Positions 7,864-50,420 of a stretch of 64,000 nt of DNA are shown here, piece by piece. The notes beneath the pieces were generated by a model. It saw only the letters and a list, made by a program, of their open reading frames with translations. It was not told the DNA's origin and ran no database searches. The number at the start of each line of letters is the position of its first letter. Within the stretch, counting starts at the first letter, position 1. The stretch comes from Polytrichum commune (taxonomy: Eukaryota > Streptophyta > Polytrichopsida > Polytrichales > Polytrichaceae), in contig OX485804.1 of the NCBI GenBank assembly GCA_950295325.1, positions 8,308,001 through 8,372,000 of the forward strand, read 5' to 3'. Both the position numbers and the translations under genes were made by a program.

Positions 7864-10541
7864 CCATTAGTTGCAGTTGCAACTCTTCTCGAGGTGAGAT
7901 GCTTCTAGCCCACTGCATAAAGGCTTGCCAGCAATTTTGGTTACTATCCTCAAAGCTTGGCAGGTGTTGAAGGCGTTGGTAGGTATTCTTCAAGGATGCC
8001 ATGTTTGCTGAATAGAACCGGAGTAGGAGTGCTTATACACATTGAATTAGCAACAATTGTAAAGTGATTTGCATTAACTCGGCTCTCAAGGACCATGTAA
8101 ACAACAAGAGATCTGTAACCACCTCAAAACTTTCTAGCTAGCCCTGGGTGTTTTGCTGCAGATCCAAGCAGTATGTCAAGAATGAAGCTAGAATAACCTC
8201 TAGCTGAAGGATAAGTGACACCACCAAGTTTGTAATCAATTCATCCCAACTAGGTTGCACTTGGTTGAATCTGGGTCTCTGATGTTAGTTCTGGTGATCA
8301 ATTGCGTTAAATTTCCAGCCTCTCAACAGTGCATTGCGTTTTCACCTTCTGGATAAATGTTAATCCGCAGCGACACCCAAACACTGGCCTCCTCCTTCAT
8401 CATCACTACTCTTGTTTACAAAACCACCTGTAGCATTGAAGCCGTAAAATGTGAAGTCAATGTTGGCATTTGCAACCTCTGAACCCTGGACAACTATAAT
8501 TGACTTTTATCAAGCGCACAAACATCACAATCCAAAGAGATTCTAATTTCTGGTCTTTCTCCATCTCAATTTGCACATATCTGTGAAAACATGAATAGAA
8601 TAATGTCAATGAATTATTTAAGCTTTATATGTACTAAACACAAGAACAACCATAGGACTCACCCAAGGTAACGATCATTGTTGGGCTGCTCAACCCTAGT
8701 ATTGTGAATGTGAAGTCGTAGTCACCTCTTGAGTATACATGAGGCATTATAGTTGTGGACAGTTGTCACGTTTAGGGTTTTAAAAGTTGGGGCTGGTAGT
8801 GAAAATCTTGTTTTCTTGGTAGTTTTAAATGACGGGATAGATGTGGACCCAGCAATCGAATAGAGACACATGTATTAATTTGGAATACAAACAATGCGAG
8901 AATTAAAATTTCAAATTTTGGAGTTCATGTCCCTTTTGCATAGGTGGTCAAAGTTCATTTCCTGGATGATGTCTTACATATTGGTCTTTGATAGCCATCT
9001 TTTAAGCATGTTTTGTCATCTTTGAAGCATCTTTGATAGCCATCTTTGGGGTGTTGCCCAAATTGCTAAATGTAATTGTTCCTTAGAACGGGTAACAAAT
9101 ATTGCCTCCTTGCCAAATCTTAGGTCAAGTTCCATGAAGTGAACTCGGCAACAAGGTCCAAAATGCTCTTTTAACTTTATGGGTGAGGACATGGTCATTA
9201 AGGTGCATTAAAGGGCTTTATTGAGGTCCATAACTTTGGCCACATTGTACATATTTTGAATCTTTCTCATGGAAACATCTTGAGAGCTTGTGAGATCATG
9301 GATAGGAAGGGAGGGGGGGGGAGAGGAGGGGGAGGATAATGGAAGGGAACATTTGTGAGCATACAAAAATGCTTGTCACCCTTCCGATGATCAAATTTAC
9401 TTTGACCCAACATTGTATTTCTTCAAATAAAGTTGGACTCGAATGGGACTACATAACATTATTCAACCTCTTATTAGAATTTTGTGGGGCCATGGATTTG
9501 GATGAGTTATTCTTGAATAATTTTCACGGGATCCATTGTAGATGTAGTTTATGCCAATTTTGATATTGGGTTGGGTGTAAAATATTGCCAACTATGATGA
9601 GTTGGAGGTGGGGTAGTGGTGACATCGGGTATCCGTTAGTACATTGTGCCAAGAATGGCAAGGTGTGGCCAAGCCATTATATTAAAGACATGAAATTTTG
9701 GTGGGTGTAGTGTTGTCCACTTTGACAATTAAGGGAGTCACAAGTTTGTGTTGTAAGAAATGAGAACTCAAATATGCAAGTTGATTAATGTTATGTTGCA
9801 CCTATCCATTCCTAATATATGTAAGAATCGCCATGCCAAGTGGAAGGTTTGGGTGGTGATGTGAGGTGGCAATCTTGAATACTCTTCCGGCAAAGGAAGA
9901 CCCCTTGGGTCATTGGGGGCAAAGAAGGTTCAATTAGGTGAGAAATATTACTTTCCCTTAGCACCATAGTGCATACCTACACTTTATATTCGTTTCCAGA
10001 GTTTGCTTGGTGATGTTCATTTTGTGTGGATTGTAAACATGAAATTCATAGTCCAAGATTGCAAACAAAAAGCATACTTTGACACGTCAACCACATGAAC
10101 ACACAACCAATGAAAATAGATGTAAGAGTATATGGGTTTAAGAATCAACATCCTCTCTTTTAAGTTAATTCTACATTTACACCATGGAGTAAGTGCATAC
10201 TCATGGTGGCCATCTTCTTGCTTGATAAAGTTATGTGGGGCCTTACATGGTCACTATCCTTGATTGGATACCTATATGTGAGTGGTATATTGCAAGTTTT
10301 GTAGTCTTATGATGAGATTGCATTATGTGCTAAAATTAAAACTCAAATTTTAAGTTATATTCATTATATCCATCATATTCATTATATTCAACAATGAATG
10401 TAATGGGAGGGTCATCCATGCAAATTGAAATAAAAATCATTGTTATTGGTACCACAATGGGTAAATTCTTGGGCCGATTCAACTATCTGGTGTTGGAATT
10501 GCCAACAACAGGGTTGCATGCCTTGTTGCATACCTTGTTAC
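7864..10541. other. Intergenic stretch without recognisable genes
   Basis: The stretch follows the stop codon of the EIPR1-like gene and must begin with its 3' UTR. No exon-like segment was found. It includes a purine run at 9306-9336; I could assign nothing else. Confidence 0.5.
9306..9336 (+). repeat. Polypurine G-rich run
   Basis: An uninterrupted purine tract contains a nine-G run and several GGG/GGGG runs separated by single A or AGA. It could form a G-quadruplex or triplex on the + strand. It lies between genes and no function can be assigned. Confidence 0.6.
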
Positions 10542-11518
10542 CTAAATGACCATTGTATTGATATTTAAAAAAATTATATTGATCAAAAAATAAAATGTAT
10601 ATGGCAATGTTTTAGAACTTCTTTCATGACAATAATTTATTTGAAAATGTTCCACCTCTATAATACATCCAAATTAAAGTAAATAAGTATGTAACATTAT
10701 CTTCTTATTGATTTTTAAAGTAATTACATGTTGGTATAGTCGAACCTCGTTTATACAACACCCTCAATATTACGACACATTTTTATGAGACCAAACTTTT
10801 TAGTTCAAAACTCCCTCTTTTATACGACTACAACACTCGATAATGCAACATATAGAATCTCCGTGTTGTCATATTAAAGAGGTAGTTAATGCTAGAATCC
10901 CTTTCATCTATACAATGTACATCTAAACTACATCCATTTTCACTTGGGAACCATTTGGGAACTTCACTTATTGTTGGGAACTTAATGGTAATTAGGGTTA
11001 CTAGTGTAGAATGGACATAGTTAGGGTGAGAGTGGGCTCCTGCCTAGTATGTTGCCTTGTACACGGGTGATATAACTTAGTATCACTAGTATCTTGATGC
11101 TAAACGTCATGCATCATTGTTATCTAGTTTCTTATTAGAGAACTCTTTATATTTTGGTGTTAATGAAATTATTAGTTTCCAAAAGTTAGATAGGAATTTA
11201 GATAAGATGACACTTGCTTACTTGGGTAGGCAAGTTGGCAACACCAAAGATCTTTGGACTCTTATTTTAAGAGTTTTTGGGAATATTTGTAATTGTTTGG
11301 AGTTATAAGTTATTATTTCATACCATCTATATTGTTTAAACTTGTTGTATATATTTTTAAGCTCATGTTACTTATGTTTTCATATTCCTCAATAATATGA
11401 CAACTTTACGTAATTTTCCATATTAATGAGAAGACGACAACTCAATGATACGACTTTTTTGTATTTCCCAAAAATGTCATACTAAAGAGGGAGAAAAATA
11501 ATGCAAAGATTTCTCTCG
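10542..11518 (+). mobile_element. Left arm of a large foldback element
   Basis: This stretch of nearly 1 kb reappears as its reverse complement at 12270-13265 with only scattered differences; both arms even keep a 63-codon frame that is almost identical (11117-11308 + and 12485-12676 -). Inside the arm, from about 10738, the sequence GTCGAACCTCGTTTATACAA followed by ATGAGACCAAACTTTTTAG recalls pogo/Emigrant-type terminal repeats, from memory only. No transposase was recognised. Confidence 0.8.
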
Positions 11519-12269: not shown

Positions 12270-13265
12270 CCTTAGAGAAGTCTTTGCACTATTGTTCTCC
12301 CTCTTTTGTATGACACTTTTGGGAAATACAAAAAAAGTCGTATTATCAAGGTGTCATCCTCTTAGTAATATGACAAATGGCATAAAGTTGTAGTATTATT
12401 GAGAGAATACAAAAAACATAAGTATCATGAGCTTAAAAATATACACAACAAGTTTAAACAATATAGATGGTATGAAATAATAACTTATAACTCCAAACAA
12501 TTACAAATATTCCCAAAAACTCTTAAAATAAGAGTCCAAAGATCTTTGGTGTTGCCAACTTGCCTACCCAAGTAAGCAAGTGTCATCTTATCTAAATTCC
12601 TATCTAACTTTTGGAAACTAATAATTTCATTAACACCAAAATATAAAGAGTCCTCTAATAAGAAACTAGATAACAATGATGCATGACGTTTAGCATCAAG
12701 ATACTAGTGATACTATATCACCCGTGTACAAGGCAACATACTAGGTAGGAGGCCACTCTCACCCTAACTATGTCCATTCTACACTAGTAACCCTAATTAC
12801 CATTAAGTTCCCAACAATAAGTGAAGTTCCCAAGTGGTTCCCAAATGAAAATGGATGTAGTTTAGATGTACATTGTATAGATGAAAGGGATTCTAGCATT
12901 AACTACCTCATTAATATGACAACACGGAGATTCTATATGTTGTATTATCGAGTGTTGTACGTAGTCGTATAAAAGAGGGAGTTTTGAACTAAAAAGTTTG
13001 GTCTCATAAAAATGTGTCGTAATATTGAGGGTGTCGTATAAACGAGTGTTGTATTAACGAGGTTGGACTATACCAACATGTAATTACTTAAAAAATCAAG
13101 AAGAAGATAATGTTACCTACTTATATACCTTAATTTGGATGTATTATAGAGGTGGAACATTTTCAAATAAATTATTGTCATGAAAGAAGTTCTAAAACAT
13201 TGCCTTCTACATTTTATTTATGTATCAGTATAATTTCTTAAAATATCAATACAATGGTCATTTAG
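12270..13265 (-). mobile_element. Right arm of a large foldback element
   Basis: This is the inverted counterpart of 10542-11518. Matching ends are CTAAATGACCATTGTATTGA at the outer left and its reverse complement finishing at 13265. The arms could pair as a hairpin around a spacer of about 750 bp. The low divergence suggests a recent origin or gene conversion between the arms. Confidence 0.8.
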
Positions 13266-13274
13266 GGGGTAAGG

Positions 13275-17600: not shown

Positions 17601-20600
17601 CTCTTCTTCTCTGGTGCTAGAAGCTAGTTTTCATTTAATGGTCCATAGAATTCAAATTAGATCTAAGACAACCTCTACAAAGAGGAAGTGCAAATGCAGT
17701 TATGTGCAAACAACGGGGACCTATTATATCCAAATAACTTCACATTTCTCTTTGTGTTTCTTTTTCATACATGTAGTAGTCCAATTGGAGGAATGCAGCT
17801 GATAAACTACACCAAAGATTGTATTTAGTGTCACCAAATCTATTTGTCTTGGTCAGTACTGATTGTAAGCCGCCTGTGTAGTGTCACTAACATTAAATGT
17901 ACACCTAACAGTATTTGTTATTCCTTGTGAGAACATTTTGGGCATTATAGATTTACAATGTTGTAGTTCTACCACTTACTAAGTGATCTTTCATCCGAAT
18001 TTCAATCATCTATGACAATAGTTTATTACAGATTTGTTTTGATGCAGAATATACCATACTTGTGAAGCTGGGATGACAATACTTAAAAACTTATTCATAA
18101 GAAGTGCCATTAGAAAAGTTACCACAGTGACATAAAGTACCATATGACACTAAATGCAATACTTAGCGTAGTTAATTTATGATGGGTCAATTTTGACATC
18201 ATCAGTGTTTTTATTTTTACGTGTTAGGTAGCCTCAAACATCTCCATATGATGCCTTCAGGCCCTAAATCAACTTGACAAAATCATGAGCATGACACACA
18301 ACAGAGCATTTATTTGTCGCTCACTCGATGTATACTGAGTTGATGCCAATTTCTCTTCCAACAAGTGCCACAAGTCTAAAATAAGAATCCCCTATGAACA
18401 CCCTGACCAGGCTATTAACCTCAACCTTTCTGCAACCCTCAGAGTACCCATCAGTCTGTCCAAAAATTGAGGTTAATGGATACCTAGCTGTCTTTCATGG
18501 AGATTCAATGGTTATTTTTTCAGGAAGAAAATATCGCAATACACAATGCAGGCATGTAAGGTACTTGGTTCGTAAGTGGCCTATTTTCTTAATTGGACCC
18601 CTATGTTTGATTAGTATGTGGTTCAGTGAGGATCGAAGAGCAAACATCATAAAGACACATGATTAAAAGAGATTGGACTATGTCATCAATTATTAACAAC
18701 TACTTTACACTCAACAGTGAACACAATTGGGAGGACTTATGCATCCACTTAAGAAATCAACAAACATGCACTTCCAATAATCATAAATAAATTAGAGGAG
18801 GTCCAATTTTCGATCCGGTTTTTGCAAATGCTTTATCATAATTTGCTAGTGCAGCGTGAGCTTGTTGTGTATATCTAATCAGTCGAAGTTAGAGAGAACA
18901 TGAAAAGAGGAAACAAATAAATCCCACATACCTTATACGATGACGATGTGGTTTCTCGTTTCCCTTGAAGGTTTCTGAACCCTACGTGACGGAAGACAGC
19001 TATTTGCACTCAGCCGAGCAAAGATACAAGGGCTTTCTATACCTCTTTGCGAAATTTGGAGGGCAAGGCATTTTCCTTGTGCCCACATATGACATCGACC
19101 TTATGTGGCACACTCACCAACTCGACCCCCTCGCGTACAATAGAGACCTCCTTACACTCACCGCCAAACTTTTACCCCACGACGACACAGATGATAACCG
19201 AGAAGAGGGGGCAAAGCTCACGACCGGGTTTCGAGACACCCGAAAGCTATGGGAGGAGACGTTTGGCAGCCCGTACGAGAAAGCCGGTGCAATGTATCGA
19301 GGTCCAACACCCTCCTCGGTTGCGGAATATAATAGGACGTCCCCATGCGTGCCTGAAAATGTGATGTTTGGGAGCACTTACTTGAAGCTCCGAGAAGACC
19401 AGCGACAATACTTGTTTGAGCGAGAATCTGTACAGGTAAAGTTATCAGTACCCCTCGTCTACCCAAAAGAAAAGTCTCGTTGAGACGCAGATTAAGGTGC
19501 ATAGCTATGTCCGGGCAGAACTGGCGGTTAGTTACAGATGAACCGGTTGAGATTGAGAAATAACCGGTTGAAGTTGGAGACTTCAGGAGAATTACCGTTC
19601 ATTTTAGAGAAACCTATAGGATATACCTCGAATGAATGAAAGCAAAACTGGAAGAAGATGTCAACATGTAACCGGCTGGATTTAGAATCACTCGGATCTT
19701 GACCGACTATGCCCAAAAACTTCCCGGGCACTGGTGCATAGCATTAGGTATTTGATCAACTATAATATCTAGTGCTCCATGCAAAGCTGATCTGGAATAT
19801 TTTAGGGAACTAGGCAAACGAGATTACGTCAACAAATAGTAACCCACATCATCGGATACATTGGGGTGTTGTCTGGTTGGACACAGACACGTCTTAGTTT
19901 GGGGAGAAATTTGCCACATGTTGTATCCACATTGGTCAAGACCATGTTCAATCCAACGTGGAAATCAGTTAAGTTGGGCACTCAACATGTTGAACCAGAC
20001 AACACTCTACAGTAACAACATTAAATAAACGTATGTCCGTGTTATTATTTACAAGCAGTGGTGAGTTCTTTCAACCCTGCAACCCTGTCTTGTTGATTAC
20101 TGCAATGCGCAAGTATGTGTTGCTAAGATAGGTGGGCCTCAAAGTATAGTTCTCTTTTTATTTTAAACAGTCAATTTGTTCAAGATGGTTAGCAAATACA
20201 AATATAGGCCGTAACGATTTTCCTCGTGACATTTTGACATTTGTAGCGATATCTTATTCATCAACAAAGTGAAGAATCTTTTCTCTTCTTGAACAATCAT
20301 ATAGGTCAGTAAATTATGTTCACATGAACCCATAATAGTAAACAATTGTTGATCACGCAGTCCAATCTCTTCCGAACATGTGTCTTTTTTGGTGTCTGTT
20401 CTCAGATCCACCACCTAACCGCATACCACTCAAATGTAGATGTCCAAATAAGAGAAGTACCCGAACTAGACCCGCTCATCCCCGTCTCCATGTCTGATGC
20501 AAAGTGCCCGATATACATGCAGCTCTGTGTGAATGTGCTGGGCGTGAGGAATTTGCCGGCCAACAAATCAGGCTGCCATGTGTTTGTCTGCATGAAAGGA

Positions 20601-23600
20601 ATGAGGAATTGTGGTGATTTCCAGTTGACCACCTCTGCATTCGACAGTGATGCAATTGCGAGCCATTGGATGATGCACTGTGAGAAGTCGACCGAGGGAG
20701 TGGTTTTCGAGCTCCGGTCTCATCCGACGGGCCTTCTCAAGAGCTTCACGGGAAGCAAGCTTCTCGGGGAAGTTCGCATCGCGTTTGCCACCCTTCTTGC
20801 GTCGCCAACCTTGGCAATCCAAGGATGGTATGCCGTGTCCAAGAAGGCGGGTGGGAATCCCATATTATACGATTTGGATAACAAACCCCCCGGGCTGTTG
20901 TTGGCGGCCTCAATCACGCCGCTGGTCTCGTCACCTTACCTCTTGAGGGCTGTGAATGGGAAGGTGCAAAGCGACATTTTCGACCGAGTGAAAGAATCGA
21001 AAAGGGCGTGGCATACAGGCCGGTGGATGACAAGGATCGTATTGGACCACCGTTCCGAAGAGAAGTACCTTGTGCGCGTGCGGTATGCTTCTTCTTCTTC
21101 TTCTTCTTCCTCCTCCAATTTAAGTATAAGGTACTGTAGCGTTCTAGCAGCTTGGGCAGAAAATAATTGATTTTAAAGGTGCCTGTATTTTTGGGAAATG
21201 AATTTCGTTGAGCGTCCCCCCCAAAAAGGAAATAACATTCAAAGAGTGTCTAAAATCATACTAACGGAACTGACATTTGTTGGAATTCAACAAAGTAGCA
21301 TCAAATAACTTCAACAGTGTCTTCACACGGCATCAATCTCACTCATGGTCTAAAAACAATTCAAGCATGACTTTGCTCCACAAGCCATGCTAACACACTA
21401 CCCTAAAAACGGGATCAAGACACGAAAACGAGAATGAATGTCTAATTTATTTTAAGTTACTTTTTTACTCTGCCTTTTTTTAGAGTATTATTTTCCGGGT
21501 TGCCTAACTTACTATCACACTTTGTTTAATTATTAGGCAGGATGGTGCCCGAGCTGCTAGAGAGCTATGGTAGACATGCTTTAGATGGATACTGGTCTCT
21601 TTGCACCCACTTCTCGTAAAACATGAACCATGCAATGAGTGGAAGATGATTAGGAAATACAAATCATGTGCATAACCATTTGCCTCATCATTTTCGGCAC
21701 TCGTATGAATATCTTATTAATTATCAAAGTGGAAATTCTCTCAATCATTAAGTGGTCATATAGGTTCCCTCTAATCATGTGACCACTTATGATTGAGAGA
21801 AACTTCAATCATTGTGCCTAGAATGGTTAGCGTATTTGGAGCACATGGGCCAATTGACATCTAAACACATGTCCATTGGTGCTAGTTCTTAGATCCACAC
21901 CTAACCACATACCACTCAAATACAGGTGTTCAGATTGCTATTGTGTTCAATTTAGGCTTGTCTACCTAATATCCACATAAGGCCGTATAAACATGTGTGC
22001 ACAAGCTTTCGCCCTTGAAGTTTGTTGTCTATGTAGTGGTCATACCAAGCAATTTTTGTTGATGTGTCATATCCTAATTGAATACAAGGAGACACATAAT
22101 TATAACCCATAATTAATGGCCCTACCATAGCATGATCACTACATCATGTATTGGACACGTGTCATCCCACCATTGGATGTGGTAGGCACCCAATACCAAC
22201 CTCGTGACTTGTAGGGTGGGTGTCTACTACAACCCATAGCAGAGGACCTTGCATCTATTACCTAGTTCATATTCCCCCTCCTCCATATCACTCATCTATA
22301 ACTATCTCTCTAACGCCTTGCAAAGGTGTGGCCTTTGCACAAGGATGACCCCCATCCCAAACATCTCAAACATAGGGTTGCAATTTTAATCTTATAGTGT
22401 TTCTACGGCATATAGTTCACTTCAAAGTTCAAGCATATGAGTCCGAGACCATTGACCTACGTCACTAGAAACTTGTCATATGTAACTGGAAATTTTGCAA
22501 ATCTAGCACAATGATAGATTTGCATTGTTCTTTCATTGGCATGGGAAGATTGATTACGTAAGACTCATATGCTAGTAGTGGTTGCACAATTTAAGGTTGT
22601 AGTTGAACCAATGTTGAATGACTTGTCAGCTAGATCTCAAGTTAGCACTGACAAGATATTGAAATTCTGAAGGGTAGGTATTGTATCAACACCTACTCAC
22701 ATTAAAAAGCTAGTCACTTGCAATTTGAGGTGCCCTGCTTATCTCCTGCACTTGCGCGATTGCAGGAAAATGAAAGGACGAATGCGGGACTGTGTTCCTG
22801 TGGAGGAAAATGAAAAGGAGGTGCAAGTTTTCCAACTGGATCCCAATATGATGAAGTCGAAGCCTTGGACTTTTAAATCGGGTCAGCTACCATGTCTTTT
22901 TGTTACGTATGGTGTTTGTGTATGCTTTGTGAGTACCACCATCTCCGGATGTTGCTAAGTGTTCAAGTCGAGATAGCCATTAGTCACTTCACTAATCTCC
23001 ACTAGAGAAGTGATATGGAAGAACTTCTCCAAGAATGTTAATGACTACTGGCCATTGGTAGAAGCCCAACAAGTAATGGGTCACACCTTCGAGTTCAATT
23101 GTGGACTCTTAACACCTGTAGGGATCGCTTTTCTTACTGCTATCGGAATGTACATTAAATAATCCTATTATTGTGGGCCACACTAGTTTTCTACAACCCA
23201 TGCTACTTCCATTCAATGAGGATTACTGTTGGCCACATTGATTTGCAAACCACAGTAAATTTTTAGTAGAAAAAATAGCGTGAGTCACATCAGTATTGTT
23301 TTCGAGAAAATTAATGTGAGTGATCATTCGATTTTGTGCTACTTTTGTCTTAGAACTACTATTCAATGTGTTGGTGAGAAGTTTTCATGAAGACTTAGGA
23401 GAAGCCCCCTGGATCTTAGACCCATGTTAGTTCCACATTGACTAGACAATTAATGTAGCTCACGCTGATTTCTCGCTCACACTAGCAGGATTATTGAGTG
23501 TAGTGTCCATGGGGGATTCACATGAGTCTCAACCGATGTAGGAATGGCATGTGGCACGCGTTTTTTGGAGGATAAAAACAATCCTTTGAGTCATAGTGGA

Positions 23601-26600: not shown

Positions 26601-27075
26601 ATGCTTGAAGTGCTGAAATATACTGATTTTTATTTATTTTTTGAGGTTCACTTGTCCAAATTTTTGGGTATTCTAAACGAGACACCTAAATCACACAAGT
26701 TTCAAGAAACCGAATCGAAGGCCGAAACCTTCTCAATATGACCTAAATGTGCATTAATCGACTTGACCACATGATGAAATGTTGATTTTACTTGACAAAT
26801 TGTTGCTTGAAGGTGCGGTGATCATGGATAGACGGTTTGGGACCAATGTCATGCCGGCCTCCACATTGATTTACAACAACTGGTGGGTGGATCCAAATGC
26901 ATGGGCCAAAGAGGTATATGCATCCGAAGGAAGAGGTTATAGAGGTGGGAGTGGGTGTGGTGGTGGAGGATGCGGAGGAGCTGTTTGTGCAGGTGGATGT
27001 ATGGGTGATAATGGTGGCGGTCCATACAAAGACATGCTTTCATTTTCGGCTGACCTAAAGGCCCCTAAAAAATAA
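14608..27075 (+). CDS. GRDP: Glycine-rich domain-containing protein (GRDP, DUF1399)
   Basis: Ten exons: 14608-14846, 16242-16353, 17334-17588, 18971-19435, 20406-21082, 22766-22881, 23742-23908, 24400-24552, 26018-26159, 26813-27075; 862 aa. The DUF1399 hallmarks are VPPLDCAWVWHCHRLNP (about 101-117) and VPTYDIDLMWHTHQLDP (about 240-255). A C2-like segment starts near residue 392 (CPIYMQLCVNVLGVRNLP). The C-terminus has a Gly/Cys-rich tract (about 815-845), as in Arabidopsis GRDP1/2, which are linked to ABA, salt stress and development. Residues 10-16 are a Ser run from AGC repeats. An in-frame ATG at 14578 would add 10 residues. The exon 7 acceptor may instead be at 23730 (four more residues). 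Exons 6 and 7 are supported mainly by phase and are the least certain. Introns carry many MITEs. Confidence 0.92.
14643..14664 (+). repeat. AGC trinucleotide run in GRDP exon 1
   Basis: About seven consecutive AGC codons encode a Ser run near the N-terminus of GRDP. Being a coding microsatellite, it is likely to vary in length between individuals. Confidence 0.85.
16790..17060 (+). repeat. Inverted-repeat element family K, copy 1 (GRDP intron 2)
   Basis: The segment resembles the reverse complement of 22010-22270 in GRDP intron 5. Shared landmarks include AACTAGGTAATGTATG, TGGGTGTCTA, GACAAGTGTCC, the order ATATCCAATTGG then CCAACAAAATTGCTTGG, and a GTAGTGGTCAT-type motif. It is non-coding. 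Confidence 0.5.
17806..18180 (+). mobile_element. MITE family G, copy 1 (GRDP intron 3)
   Basis: It resembles 27706-28102 along its length: GTATTTAGTGTCACCAA near the left end, then TACTGATTGTAA, TGTAGTGTCAC, ACTTACTAAGTGAT and an inverted terminus with ACACTAAATG and CTTAGCGTAGTTAA. Its termini are more diverged than those of the other copy. Confidence 0.65.
18590..18945 (+). mobile_element. Dispersed element family R1, copy in GRDP intron 3
   Basis: This copy resembles 48985-49330 and, at its left end, 33690-33950. Shared landmarks are CCTATGTTTGATTAGTA, AAAAGAGATTGGACTATG, AACACAATTGGGAGGAC, AATCATAAATA and CAAATAA.TCCCACATACCTTA. It ends about 25 bp before the acceptor of GRDP exon 4. 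Confidence 0.55.
19508..19735 (+). repeat. Dispersed repeat family E, copy 1 (GRDP intron 4)
   Basis: It is closely similar to 56594-56878 and 57246-57483: AACCGGTTGAAGTTGGAGAC, AATGAATGAAAGCAAAAC, ATGTCAACATGTAACCGGCT and GCCCAAAAACTTCCC occur in the same order. On the minus strand a frame containing GKFLGIVGQDPSDSKSS stays open in more than one copy; I recognise no protein family in it. Confidence 0.75.
20160..20450 (-). mobile_element. Element family R1 whose end overlaps GRDP exon 5
   Basis: The segment resembles 21640-21960 and 50090-50420. Shared landmarks in order are ATATCTTATT..TCAACAAAGTGA, CATATAGGTC, ACACATGTCTTTTTTGGTG, TTCTCAGATCCAC, CTAACCGCATACCACTCAAA and TGTAGATGTCC. The last 45 bases (20406-20450) are the first 15 codons of GRDP exon 5, and the acceptor AG sits inside the element. 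Confidence 0.7.
21128..21571 (+). mobile_element. MITE family B, copy 1 (GRDP intron 5)
   Basis: The inverted termini read TGTAGCGTTCTAGCAGCTTG and CTGCTAGAGAGCTATGGTAG. The body matches the copies at 28488-28978 and 47588-48062 (ATTGATTTTAAAGGTGCCT, TTGCCTAACTTACTATCACA, TAATTATTAGGCAG). It starts only about 45 bp after the GRDP exon 5 donor. Confidence 0.8.
21640..21960 (-). mobile_element. Element family R1, copy in GRDP intron 5
   Basis: Reference copy for the exonised element at 20160-20450. It includes TGAATATCTTATTAATTATC, TAAACACATGTCCATTGGTG and AGATCCACACCTAACCACAT followed by ACCACTCAAATACAGGTGTT. Here the block lies entirely in intron, which shows that it belongs to a repeat and not to GRDP. 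Confidence 0.65.
22010..22270 (-). repeat. Inverted-repeat element family K, copy 2 (GRDP intron 5)
   Basis: It resembles the reverse complement of 16790-17060, with GTAGTGGTCATACCAAGCAA, ATATCCTAATTGAAT, GGACACGTGTC, GGGTGTCTACTACAACCCAT and TTACCTAGTTC as shared landmarks. It is non-coding. Confidence 0.5.
22375..22735 (+). repeat. Dispersed repeat shared with EIPR1-like intron 2
   Basis: It resembles 2690-2900 in the first gene: ATAGGGTTGCAATTTTAATC at the left and CAGCTAGATCTCAAGTTAGC, then CTAGTCACTTGCAATTTGAG, at the right. Its right limit is about 30 bp before the acceptor of GRDP exon 6. Confidence 0.5.
25020..25340 (+). repeat. Dispersed repeat shared with gene 3 intron 4
   Basis: Motifs of the type TTTGGACCCGAGGAGTTTA, GGGTCCGAGTCATAAGTATG and a GGTCCAAGGAA-type motif on the other strand recur at 35335-35460. 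It lies in GRDP intron 8; ends and class are uncertain. Confidence 0.4.
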
Positions 27076-27348
27076 TGTCAACGGAAACTCAACAATGGTT
27101 TGTAGTCAAGCAATTGTTATTTAGCTGACCTAAAGAGCCTATAAAAAATAATGTTGACGGAAACCCAACAATGGTTTGTAATCAAGCAATTGTTGTTCAG
27201 CTAACCTCAAGGGTCTGTAAGAAATAATGTTGATGGAAACTCAACAATGGTTTGTAGTCAAGCAATTGTTATTCATCTAACCTAAAGGGTCTGTAAAAAT
27301 TAATGTTGATGGAAACTCAACAATGGTTTGTAGTCAAGCAATTGTTAA
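27049..27348 (+). repeat. Minisatellite of four 75-76 bp units overlapping the GRDP stop codon
   Basis: Units begin near 27049, 27124, 27200 and 27276, each with GCTGACCTAAAG (or a close variant), then AATAATGTTGATGGAAAC, TCAACAATGGTTTGTAGTC and AAGCAATTGTT. The first unit encodes the last nine residues of GRDP plus the TAA; the other three lie in the 3' UTR. Units differ by a few substitutions and 1-bp shifts. Confidence 0.9.
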
Positions 27349-28487: not shown

Positions 28488-28978
28488 AACTATTACTGCA
28501 ATTCTCTAGCAACTTGGGCACCTTTCTGCCTAATAATTAATCGAAGTGTGAAAGTAAGTTAGGCGACCTAGAAAATAATATTATAAAATTGGGCAGCTTC
28601 AAATACTAATTTAAAATAAGTTAGATGTTCATCCAAGTCATTTCTATAATTCATGAACAATTTTCCTAATTTCATCTATGATGGCTACAATTAACCTAAA
28701 CACTTCCCTTAACCAACATTCCTTCCCCTAAAGTTTGTCTTTTACTTGTATCTTAGGGTTTGGCTTGGCAACATATTTTGCTTTGTGTGAGAGCTATACA
28801 GAGTGGTCTTTGTGAGAGACTATGTTGTTACGATGTTTGTGAGAGATCATTGTAACTTTAGGCACTCTTTGAATGTTATTTCTTTTTTTTGGATACTCAA
28901 CAAATTTAATTTCCCATAAATTTAGGCACCTTTAAAATCAATTATTTTCTTCCCAAGTTGCTAGAGAGCTACGGTATT
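28488..28978 (+). mobile_element. MITE family B, copy 2
   Basis: The terminal inverted repeats are CAATTCTCTAGCAACTTGGG at the left and CCCAAGTTGCTAGAGAGCTA at the right. The sub-terminal motif GCACCTTTCTGCCTAATAAT and the motif GTGTGAAAGTAAGTTAGGCG match the other copies. Confidence 0.85.
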
Positions 28979-32613: not shown

Positions 32614-35600
32614 ATGGAGGCAACTCCTTTCTCATCTCTGCTTCACTCTCACAACCCACAAACTCAAATTATCACACTCTCATTCTCACATTCCAAACGC
32701 CAATCCTATCTGCCATCATCTCCACGTAGAATTTCAGGCGCCATATGCCATATGCGCAAATTGGTAAGTAAGGGGGATAGCAAAGTGTCAGAATTGCAGT
32801 GGGGTTGGCAGAGAGGGAATTGGAGGGAAGGAGGGAAGAAAAGAACACAGCGTCGAGCGCAGGCTGGGAAAGAGGATGAGGCGGGTGAGAAGATGGATTA
32901 CAAGTCATACGAGGCGTTGATGCGGGGCGGTGAAGAAGTAATTTCGATGATGAAGGAAATGTTGGAGCTTGTAAGATTGCAATTCTCTACTACTTGCATG
33001 TCTTTGAATTGACTTCCACTTTTAAAGTTAACCATGCCATGTTTGCTTTTTTATCATCAGAACTTGTCTATGTGTGTTTCTCCTTGGGTTGGTCACGGAG
33101 GATGTAAGGATTGTTTTAAAGTGTAAACTAGTCATCCAAGTATTGTAGTCCGTTACAATTTCACATTTAATTGTAGAAACCACGTTGAAGTGATTTCGAT
33201 GATGAAGGAAATGTTGGAGCTTGTAAACTTGCACATCTACTACCTGCATGTGATTTTCCCTGTCAAAGTAAACCACGTTGTGATGGCCTTTTTAATGTCA
33301 AATCCTATTTGTGTGTAGTTCCCCTTGGCTTGGTCACTGAGCATGTAAGGATCAAGGGTCCCATTTTCTAAGAGTATATCTATCCTGCAATTACTCTATA
33401 TTAATTTACATATATTTTAGAAACTGAATATTCTCCAATGGCATCACCAAGCATTCAGGTTTCAGATGGAGATTGAGTAAGTTTACCTTGCGATGCAGAA
33501 ACTTCAGTCTTAGGTGGTTGATGATGCATGGAGAGATAGTGAAAGAAAAGCTGCCTAAAATTCATGTTGTCTGATGCCAACTGCGTGCTATCAAGAAAGT
33601 AGGATATGGAAATTCAATGTCCAAAGTCAATGTGGATTTTCAGCCTAAGGTATATGAGCCTTATGGGGTCACTCCTTTTCAGCAGACACCTATGTTTGAT
33701 TAGTAAATGGCATGGCTCGGAGTTAAGAACGGACACCAAAATGACATGTGGGACAGTGAGATTGGACTATGTGCTCAAAATATAGACCTCGTTCTAGGTT
33801 CGATAATGAACACAATTGGAGGGTCTGTGTAATTGTTTCAAGAGAATGAGAAACTTCACTTTGGACTCTTATAACTTTTGCATCTGAACCCAATTCTGCA
33901 ACTTGAAATGACAATTTTTGGTGTATGCAATTACTAACCGAATAAGGCAATTTTGATTCGATCCAACAGCCAATTCTGTTTGTGGAGGTGTGACTAAGTG
34001 GAGCAATATCTAGTCACTTCCAATGTATGTTCCATGCACCCAGTCTGTTGTGAACAGGATAATGTTATGGTGAAATCTGAAACCTTGTATTGGTTTAACA
34101 GCTGGAAGACATAACAGGATTGGGATCAGAGGCAGAGGAAGTTGCAGTGGAGATGGCAGCCACAGGAGCAGTTGGTCAGCGGCTCGATAAACTTGATGAA
34201 AGCTTTCTCCTGGCCCTGGACTTCATGATCAAGCAGGCGGATCGGGATGATAAGGTACTTGTCTGTGTCTTGCTTCAACACTTTGAGTGCCAAAAGCTAA
34301 TTTTCACGTTGGATTGAACATGGTCTTGACGGATGTGGATACAGCACGTGGCAAATTTCTTCCAATTTTTATCTATTTTGGGTTGAACCGGACAGCACTC
34401 TAGAGTAGTTAAATTAGCACAACATATTTCTGATGCTTTCTTATTCAGACCCTTAGATTCATAGCCAGTACATCTCTGGGAAATTACATGGATCCTCCGA
34501 ACTGCAGGAATTTTATAGTTACAACACATCTGCATGCTATATCATACTATCACAAAATATCTATGTATAGACTAACTACACCATTTACGGGTAGTTATGT
34601 GGCCATTACTTTTTGAAATTACACAGTGCTATAACTATTATGCAATGTAGTTGTGTAGTATTTTCTTTTTTGAATGTGAATGCCATCAATTTTATCTGGA
34701 ATGTGGTTACAATCATATTGGTGAGATCTCTGGACATGTAATGTTGACAGAAACTGATCTTGAGCACCTGGTAGTGTGTCCTTGTTACAGCAACGATGGC
34801 TGCTTGGGGTAATTAAGGATACTGTTCTTGCACAACTGGCACAGAAATTTCCATCTCAGGTGAGACAACACTGGTTCCCACTATTTGATTTCAAGACTTA
34901 TCAAGATGTCATTCCATATCTACCATGTCCACTACGCCCTTTCGTTTGACTTATGAATTGAGGCAATACTGTCTAATGTAGGAGGGTATCAAATGTCTTT
35001 GTTGTCATTTTGTTTACTGAATAAGGCTTGTAGTTGATAGCTTATGCAAACTAATATCTATTTAATGTGGTTGAATAGGTGCAAATAGTAGGCATATTGT
35101 GTCGTACCCCAGACAAAGATGCTCGCCAAGAAGTTTTAAGGCGATGTGCTGGAGGGGGTGGTACATTTGATAAAACTGGAGGGGGCAAGATTGAACTTCC
35201 TGCAGTCAACCTCCAAGATGTTGCAAATCAAGCAGAAGAAGTGATTATGGTTGAACCTCCAGACTTCTCAGACTTGTCATTTTATATTGTTTTACAATGT
35301 AGTTTTATTCCTGGACTGTCTTTGTGAACTGTGAGATGGGTTTATAGTAGGGTCCAAGGAAAATCTAAAATTGAGTGATCCTTTTGGTTGAGAGAAAGAT
35401 TTTGGACCCAAGGAGTTTACATTAGGGTCTGGGTCCAAGATATGAAAAAACCAGGTAGAAGTTGGTCATTCTTTCCTGCCATAGTAGAGTTATTATAACT
35501 CAATGGGACGTTTGTTGGGAGTTGGCCATTATGAGTTTCCATTGGTTGTTTTGCATGCAATATCAGTAACTTCTTTCCAACCGTGGTGCATGCACGGAGG

Positions 35601-47587: not shown

Positions 47588-48062
47588 AATATTGTAGTTC
47601 TCTAACAATTTGGGCACCTTTCTGCCTAAATAATTATTTTTGTGTGAAAGTAAGTTAGGCAACCCATAAATTCATATTCTAAGATTGGGCAAATTCAAAA
47701 AGCAGTTTAAAAAAAGTTAGATATTCATCTAAATCATTTCTATAATTCATGGATGATTTTCCTAATTTCATCCATGGCGGCTACAATTAACCTAAACACT
47801 TTCCTTAACCAACATTCCTTACCCTAAAGTTTGTCTTTTACTTGTATGTCATGGTTTTGCTTGGTAACATATTTTGATTTTAGGCACTCTTTTACTTGTA
47901 TGTCAGGGTTTTGCTTGCCAACAAATTTTATTGTGATTTTAGGCTCTTTTTTTAATGTTATTTCTTTTTTGGGGACACTCAATGAAATTAATTTTCCATA
48001 AATTTAGGCACCTTTAAAATTAATTACTTTCTACCCAAGTTGCTAGAGAGCTATGGTAGTAA
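47588..48062 (+). mobile_element. MITE family B, copy 3
   Basis: The termini TGTAGTTCTCTAACAATTTG and CCAAGTTGCTAGAGAGCTAT are inverted repeats of the family. The sub-terminal motif GGGCACCTTTCTGCCTAA and the body (GTGTGAAAGTAAGTTAGGCA, CATGGCGGCTACAATTAACC) match the copy at 28488. An internal direct duplication (CTTTTACTTGTATGTCA twice, near 47840-47910) is specific to this copy. Confidence 0.85.
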
Positions 48063-50089: not shown

Positions 50090-50420
50090 CCACTAGATAT
50101 GACACTCGAAATTAGTGTAAGGGATTAGCGAATCCAAATCATGCCCAAAGCCGTTCACATCGTAGTTTGTAGAGGTTATACCAAATATCTTGTTCACTGT
50201 CAAAGTGAAGCTTATTGTGCTCATCAAGTGGTTAGATTCGTCCCCCCAAGCATGTTGAGTATTGCGTCCAGCATATATTTTGAGCACATAGTCATGTCTC
50301 TTTGAAACACATGCTTTTCAATGCCAATTCTTAGGTCCACGATTCCACACTTCACCACATATCACTCAAATGTAGGTGTCCATATTATTGTTGTGTTCGA
50401 TTTAGACATGTCTATCTCAT
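50090..50420 (-). mobile_element. Element family R1, intergenic copy
   Basis: It shares with 20160-20450 and 21640-21960 the blocks AAATATCTTGTTCACTGTCA, AAACACATGCTTTTCAATGC, TTCTTAGGTCCACGATTCCA, CACCACATATCACTCAAATG and TAGGTGTCCATATTATTGTT. It helps define the consensus of the element that overlaps GRDP exon 5. Confidence 0.6.

Follow-up and report, generated by a model that had tools for sequence, protein, structure and literature searches.

Exon 5 of a GRDP gene in Polytrichum commune has probably gained a second acceptor from an old transposable element in intron 4; the sequence comparisons on which this reading is based suggest that the element's acceptor, ending at position 20405, finds some use, partial or full, in competition with the ancestral acceptor ending at 20522. 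The exonization is described as a competition between two acceptors because the ancestral site is intact and in phase; the two sites share the same phase and lie 117 nt apart. All positions refer to the window, the whole stretch of 64,000 nucleotides analyzed here (contig OX485804.1, positions 8,308,001 to 8,372,000).

The GRDP Gene and Its Ancestral Junction

The genome searched comprises 408 Mb in 64 contigs, seven of them large (42–78 Mb); the window is part of contig C2. Its gene is a GRDP gene, with a GRDP-like domain (PF07173) followed by C2_GRDP (PF25334), both above the Pfam cut-offs; the joined exon 4–exon 5 protein in its short form, with exon 5 starting at 20523, scored 79.6 bits for PF07173 and 37.0 bits for PF25334. 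Exon 4 (18971–19435, forward strand) carries the PF07173 match, the end of the GRDP-like/DUF1399 domain, and a linker, and ends in phase 0 with RESVQ followed by gtaaag; the conserved part of exon 5 (20523–21083, forward strand) carries the C2_GRDP domain, with the PF25334 match and the five paralog matches. A PF07173 search of the genome yielded 12 exon matches, which were grouped into six GRDP genes including that of the window, and the exon 5 protein found six matches, one per GRDP gene; its conserved part is 28–44% identical to the five paralogs.

The five paralogs were assembled from their genomic loci for a comparison of junctions, and protein homology, in part judged by eye, defined the exons and junctions of all GRDP genes. 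All six GRDP genes of the genome close exon 4 in phase 0 with R[EHR][STIV][VL]Q before a gt donor, and this common donor rules out a shifted exon 4 donor in the window gene. Exon 5 starts with cag/GTN (the slash marks the splice site) in 5/5 paralogs, at the place that corresponds by protein homology to window position 20523. Since all five paralogs start exon 5 there, and the end of exon 4 has phase 0 in 6/6 genes, the ancestral junction is placed at 19435–20523, which in turn puts the landing site of the element 41 nt upstream of the ancestral acceptor.

Several further features were observed in this gene family and around the gene. In the paralog C7b (L017, contig C7 near 19570312), exon 5 is preceded by two cag/gtttct acceptors with a spacing of 18 nt (ttgcag gtttctgtacatgcag gtttct), which may act as tandem alternatives at the junction that corresponds to that of the window gene. 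A second repeat family occupies 21132–21567 in intron 5 of the window gene and recurs inverted at 28503–28976 and 47595–48058. A tandem array of 76-nt period at 27057–27346, its copies 86–87% alike, lies at and just past the close of an open frame whose last part is rich in glycine; this frame is possibly the end of the window GRDP gene. An inverted duplication of about 1 kb (10541–11516 vs. 12274–13266, 93% identical, arms about 0.76 kb apart) bears matching ORF fragments on opposite strands.

A Large Family of Elements with Terminal Inverted Repeats

The element in intron 4 is an old, MITE-like copy with terminal inverted repeats (TIRs) that extends over about 20126–20481 on the forward strand, as delimited by a 42-copy alignment, the family consensus and genome searches; its left arm is shortened, the TA to its left (20124–20125) is kept, and the TA to its right has decayed to CC (20482–20483). 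The first-pass annotation had given the block as 20160–20450, with 15 codons reaching into exon 5; since the element runs over about 20126–20481, the number of element-derived codons rises from 15 to about 25. The recurrence of the block within the window was seen correctly: copies were found at 21581–21929 and 50096–50381 (both forward) and in part at 33863–33646 (reverse), besides nine further BLAST pieces. The family consensus, searched against the window, recovered the 20126–20481 copy itself and 12 further pieces, and the reversed-sequence control recovered none. One of the sense copies lies in intron 5 of the same gene (21581–21965, ends approximate). An antisense partial copy occurs in intron 3 (18584–18740); with the copies at exon 5 and in intron 5, it makes three in one GRDP gene.

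In the genome, 39 of the 40 scored matches to 20160–20450 (the best 40 of about 2100 candidates) lay elsewhere, at 71–75% identity; when flanks were added to the query, the matches extended to about 20150 leftward and about 20480 rightward. One 19-base core sequence of the family has 962 exact occurrences in the genome (489 + 473), against zero for a control pattern; the genome-wide copies and the controls rule out a chance similarity. The alignment, of 39 fetched copies and three from the window, shows a drop of conservation at both ends. The element ends, TA-AGGTAAGYGGGCCT and AGGCCCRCTTACCT-TA, are mutual inverted repeats, and the consensus likewise has terminal inverted repeats (TAAGGTAARYGGGYCT... 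/ ...AGGCCCRYTTACCTTA). Both ends were recognizable by a fuzzy pattern in 21 of the 42 copies, with a median length of 375 bp, and the other 21 had no recognized end pair. Among the two-ended copies, TA was counted by eye at the left end in 18/21 and at the right end in 15/21, the picking of ends having partly presupposed an adjacent A or T. The collection of genomic copies as a means of setting the ends, proposed in the first-pass annotation, gave TIR ends that mostly adjoin a TA and a length of about 375 bp.

Direct repeats of 2, 3, 4, 5, 8, or 9 bp at the ends were not enriched over permuted pairing, in a test that is blind to an invariant TA. Harbinger, hAT, and Mutator elements have target duplications of 3, 8, and 9 bp, respectively; target duplications of these sizes were rejected for the window family, as they were not enriched. 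We take the family to be a MITE-like element of Tc1/mariner type, being short, of high copy number and bounded by TIRs, with the superfamily unproven. In its consensus, TTAG comes directly after a tract rich in T, some 75 nt away from the right end.

Candidate Acceptors of Exon 5

The interval between the exon 4 donor and exon 5 contains 67 AGs, and only four exon starts, 20361, 20406, 20505, and 20523, are both in phase and open. The candidate element-derived acceptor (AG 20404–20405, forward strand; tgttctcag/ATCC) is in phase 0 with exon 4 and lies inside the element. It is followed on the same strand by an open, element-derived stretch of 25 codons plus 1 nt (20406–20481), which would be coding if 20405 were used, and by a remnant of the original intron 4 (20482–20522) between the element and the ancestral acceptor, with a branch-point-like CTGAT (A at 20497). 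The ancestral acceptor (AG 20521–20522, forward strand; catgcag/CTC) is in phase 0 and homologous to the acceptors of the paralogs. As a whole, 20406–20522 forms 39 codons without a stop that run open into exon 5.

The earlier annotation had regarded 20405 as the acceptor of exon 5. The AG and the codons 20406–20450, rightly read as IHHLTAYHSNVDVQI, do fall inside the repeated block, and the site is in phase, but its standing as the one acceptor was an assumption, given four in-phase open starts and paralogs that splice at 20523. A check of all AGs bore out the statement that none between 20405 and 20454 is compatible with the exon 4 phase. Likewise, the proposal that a MITE-like element donated the splice site is sound insofar as an element with an in-phase acceptor is real, but the ancestral acceptor at 20522, beyond 20454, is also intact and in phase.

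An acceptor PWM was built from 29 homology-defined acceptors of the six GRDP genes, three of the 29 coming from the window gene. The scores were 7.85 for 20405 (mid-range), 5.41 for 20522, 1.70 for 20360, and −6.72 for 20504, against a leave-one-out range of 1.1 to 14.1; both 20405 and 20522 can be regarded as normal acceptors because their scores fall within the range of the 29. The sites at 20504 and 20360, despite their open, in-phase starts, were rejected on their scores; a CTCAT occurs 25 nt upstream of the AG at 20504. In the 20 bases that precede the AG, the T content amounts to 0.60 for 20405, with 0/29 acceptors higher, and to 0.20 for 20522, with 2/29 as low or lower. GC upstream of the 20522 AG, over 41, 61, or 115 bases, is above that of all 29, and GC of the last 20 bases is ordinary (13/29 as high or higher); the T-poor, GC-rich stretch above 20522 is in part the element end's own composition. 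The CTGAT lies 24 nt before the 20522 AG, and the sole yTnAy found for 20405 sits 52 nt upstream; these branch-point matches are weak evidence.

The Window Copy Compared with Other Copies

The copy in intron 4 was compared with two sets of other copies, both of them biased. One set of 41 consists of 39 of the 42 non-self matches (the other three lay beside fetched ones) and two window copies, chosen by similarity; a further set of 60 was drawn from the first 62 places listed for the 19-mer on contig C1 (100 listed, 962 counted), from which one place already in the 41-copy set (L048) and one that stood in the earlier genome match list, though not among the fetched copies, were dropped. Among the 41 copies, the AG was present in 24, the frame was open to the element end in one, and both features occurred together in one; among the 60, the AG was present in 16, the frame open in five, and both in one. 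When the sets are pooled, 40/101 copies retain the AG, 6/101 have an open frame (stops in 95/101, one frame translated, for the right part in the phase of 20406), and 2/101 have both. The 40 AG-bearing copies, the only ones that can be scored, reach at best 5.23 with the PWM, so that none attains the 5.41 of the ancestral site, against 7.85 for the window copy; the AG of the sense copy in intron 5 scores only 0.1, and its frame contains stops. Relative to the consensus, the window copy has CTCAG for TTAG, an additional, frame-shifting base, and GAA for an in-frame TAA. By its AG score and its open frame, the window copy therefore stands out in both features that exonization needs.

As a caveat, the open frame of 20406–20481 is weak as proof of coding, because the element part stays open in 6–14% of neutral-decay simulations, or in 23–25% on the assumption that the parent copy already had the one-base insertion, and the case was noticed because its frame was open, a selection after the fact. 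Identity to the consensus is 0.755 for the intronic part of the element here, vs. a mean of 0.841 in other copies, and 0.813 for the exon part, vs. 0.82.

Coding Signal and Effect on the Protein

A coding score from the codon frequencies of the five paralogs was compared with that of intron slices (overlapping) and exon slices; 11% of the intron slices of 117-nt length are open at all. The stretch 20406–20522 scored 0.051 per codon; 2.2% of open intron slices score at least as high, and among exon slices the value falls at the 26th percentile. Taken separately, neither the element part (20406–20480; reached by 12.5% of open intron slices) nor the 15 codons 20406–20450 (41.9%) are distinctive, and the intron remnant after the element is borderline (5.4%); the most coding-like stretch, 20460–20522 (0.5%), was picked post hoc and is not leaned on. 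The end of exon 4 scored 0.168 (0.2% of open intron slices as high) and the first 117 nt of conserved exon 5 scored −0.063 (15.1%); the test has little power, since these conserved 117 nt score below the candidate stretch. Constraint on the exonized segment, examined through its substitution spectrum and divergence from the consensus, was not significant (Fisher p 0.33, 0.50, 0.15).

If 20405 is used, the insert would comprise 39 residues, about 25 from the element and 13–14 from the old intron. The C2_GRDP match of the short form begins at profile position 2 (37.0 bits) and that of the long form at position 4 (35.8 bits), so the splice junction coincides with the beginning of the C2 match; the insert would sit there, and not in a spacer between the DUF1399 and C2-like regions as first annotated. 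In the long form, ...IYMQ-LCVNVLG replaces ...ESVQ-LCVNVLG, and the profile accepts it nearly as well; a 39-residue insertion at the start of C2_GRDP may be tolerated.

Which Acceptor Is Used

The course of events that we favor begins with a TA-flanked TIR element of a large, old family, which, as the alignment shows, inserted in sense into GRDP intron 4. Comparison with the consensus shows that TTAG turned into CTCAG in this copy, that the frame was set by a one-base insertion, and that GAA stands in place of the in-frame TAA. The insertion parted the old upstream intron from the ancestral AG, leaving a tract whose T-poor composition is evident and whose effect on splicing is presumed. As the ancestral AG was left with this T-poor tract, and a stronger in-phase site lies upstream, the spliceosome probably splices some or all of the transcripts to the element's acceptor; these would add the 39 residues right where the C2_GRDP domain begins, and transcripts spliced at 20522 would yield the ancestral protein. 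The higher PWM score of 20405, its T-rich tract and the rarity of AG plus open frame among copies lean towards its use; the splicing of 5/5 paralogs at the 20522 place, the kept CAG, phase 0 and CTGAT, and a 20522 score within range are points against it, as are the non-significant constraint tests, the low power of the coding test and the neutral odds of an open frame.

The element could instead be purely intronic, with intron 4 spliced from 19435 to 20522 as in the five paralogs and the AG at 20405 an unused, chance cryptic site; this is a serious alternative, to which we give less credence than to some use of 20405. It has on its side the homologous junction in 5/5 paralogs with CAG and phase preserved in the window, a 20522 score within range, the short form's match to C2_GRDP over nearly its full length, and the probability that the element part would be open under neutrality (6/101 observed, 6–14% or up to 25% simulated). 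It has to contend with the T-poor, GC-rich stretch above 20522, even if scarcity of T is native to the element end, and with a stronger in-phase acceptor upstream, whose score is equaled by 0/40 AG-bearing copies. At the opposite extreme, within the favored reading, only 20405 would be used, every product would carry the 39-residue insert, and 20522 would be dead. The evidence for competing acceptors serves this extreme form as well, but the CAG at 20520–20522 and the branch-like CTGAT are intact, and a PWM score of 5.41 is normal for GRDP genes of this genome; we regard it as unlikely. A fuller version is slightly more doubtful still: the MITE would have disabled the ancestral acceptor context and its own AG taken over, all proteins of the gene would carry the 39-residue element-plus-intron peptide, which would replace the residues leading into the first conserved C2 stretch, and the family would hold in store further exon extensions in sense. 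The family could be seen as a standing reservoir of this kind because the T tract and AG carried by 40/101 copies, mostly as TTAG, are one base from CAG. Some other structure, through splicing to the AG of 20360 or 20504, a further micro-exon that is not listed, a retained intron or a gene that is not expressed, is very improbable; the starts 20361 and 20505 are likewise in phase and open, but their acceptors score 1.70 and −6.72, the domains of exons 4 and 5 are intact and above Pfam cut-offs, and the donor is kept in 6/6 genes.

Significance and Comparison with Known Systems

If the acceptor at 20405 is used, the state before the event (five paralogs), the family that supplied the site (hundreds of recognizable copies), and the changes by which the site became fit for an exon would all be readable in one genome, and the order of the steps by which an exon is born (a stronger acceptor, a set frame, a lost stop) would become testable. 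If it is unused, the case warns that gene models choosing the best upstream acceptor can invent TE-derived peptides.

TE-derived splice sites in plant genes are a kind of event already known. Stowaway-like MITEs of the Tc1/mariner type are by definition short elements of high copy number, with TIRs and TA flanks, and the window family is like them in size, copy number and TIRs, with a TA next to most of the recognized ends; its terminal sequence, AGGTAAGYGGGCC, differs from the Stowaway terminus. Alu sequences are retroelements and usually exonized in antisense, unlike the window element, which is of DNA type, lies in sense and would extend an existing exon. The likeness to Alu exonization in primates is that of an element family with members taken up into mRNA as exons (PMC2394776). 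For the gene itself, AtGRDP2 is described with five exons, and the excerpted account mentions no TE-derived exon (PMC4299439).

In mulberry, parts of MITEs are kept in mRNA by way of splice-site-like motifs, alternative 5′ and 3′ sites being the predominant MITE-related modes (PMC6593561). The mulberry MITEs were analyzed from transcripts (PMC6593561) and a study of Arabidopsis rests on long-read RNA (PMC10241880), whereas the window case is drawn from genomic sequence; it is also unlike mulberry in that the old acceptor is known from five paralogs and the two sites share their phase. In Arabidopsis, a TE located within a gene gives rise to an alternative acceptor, and with it to a chimeric gene–TE transcript (PMC10241880), and the window case is alike in that a TE inside a gene offers an alternative 3′ site.
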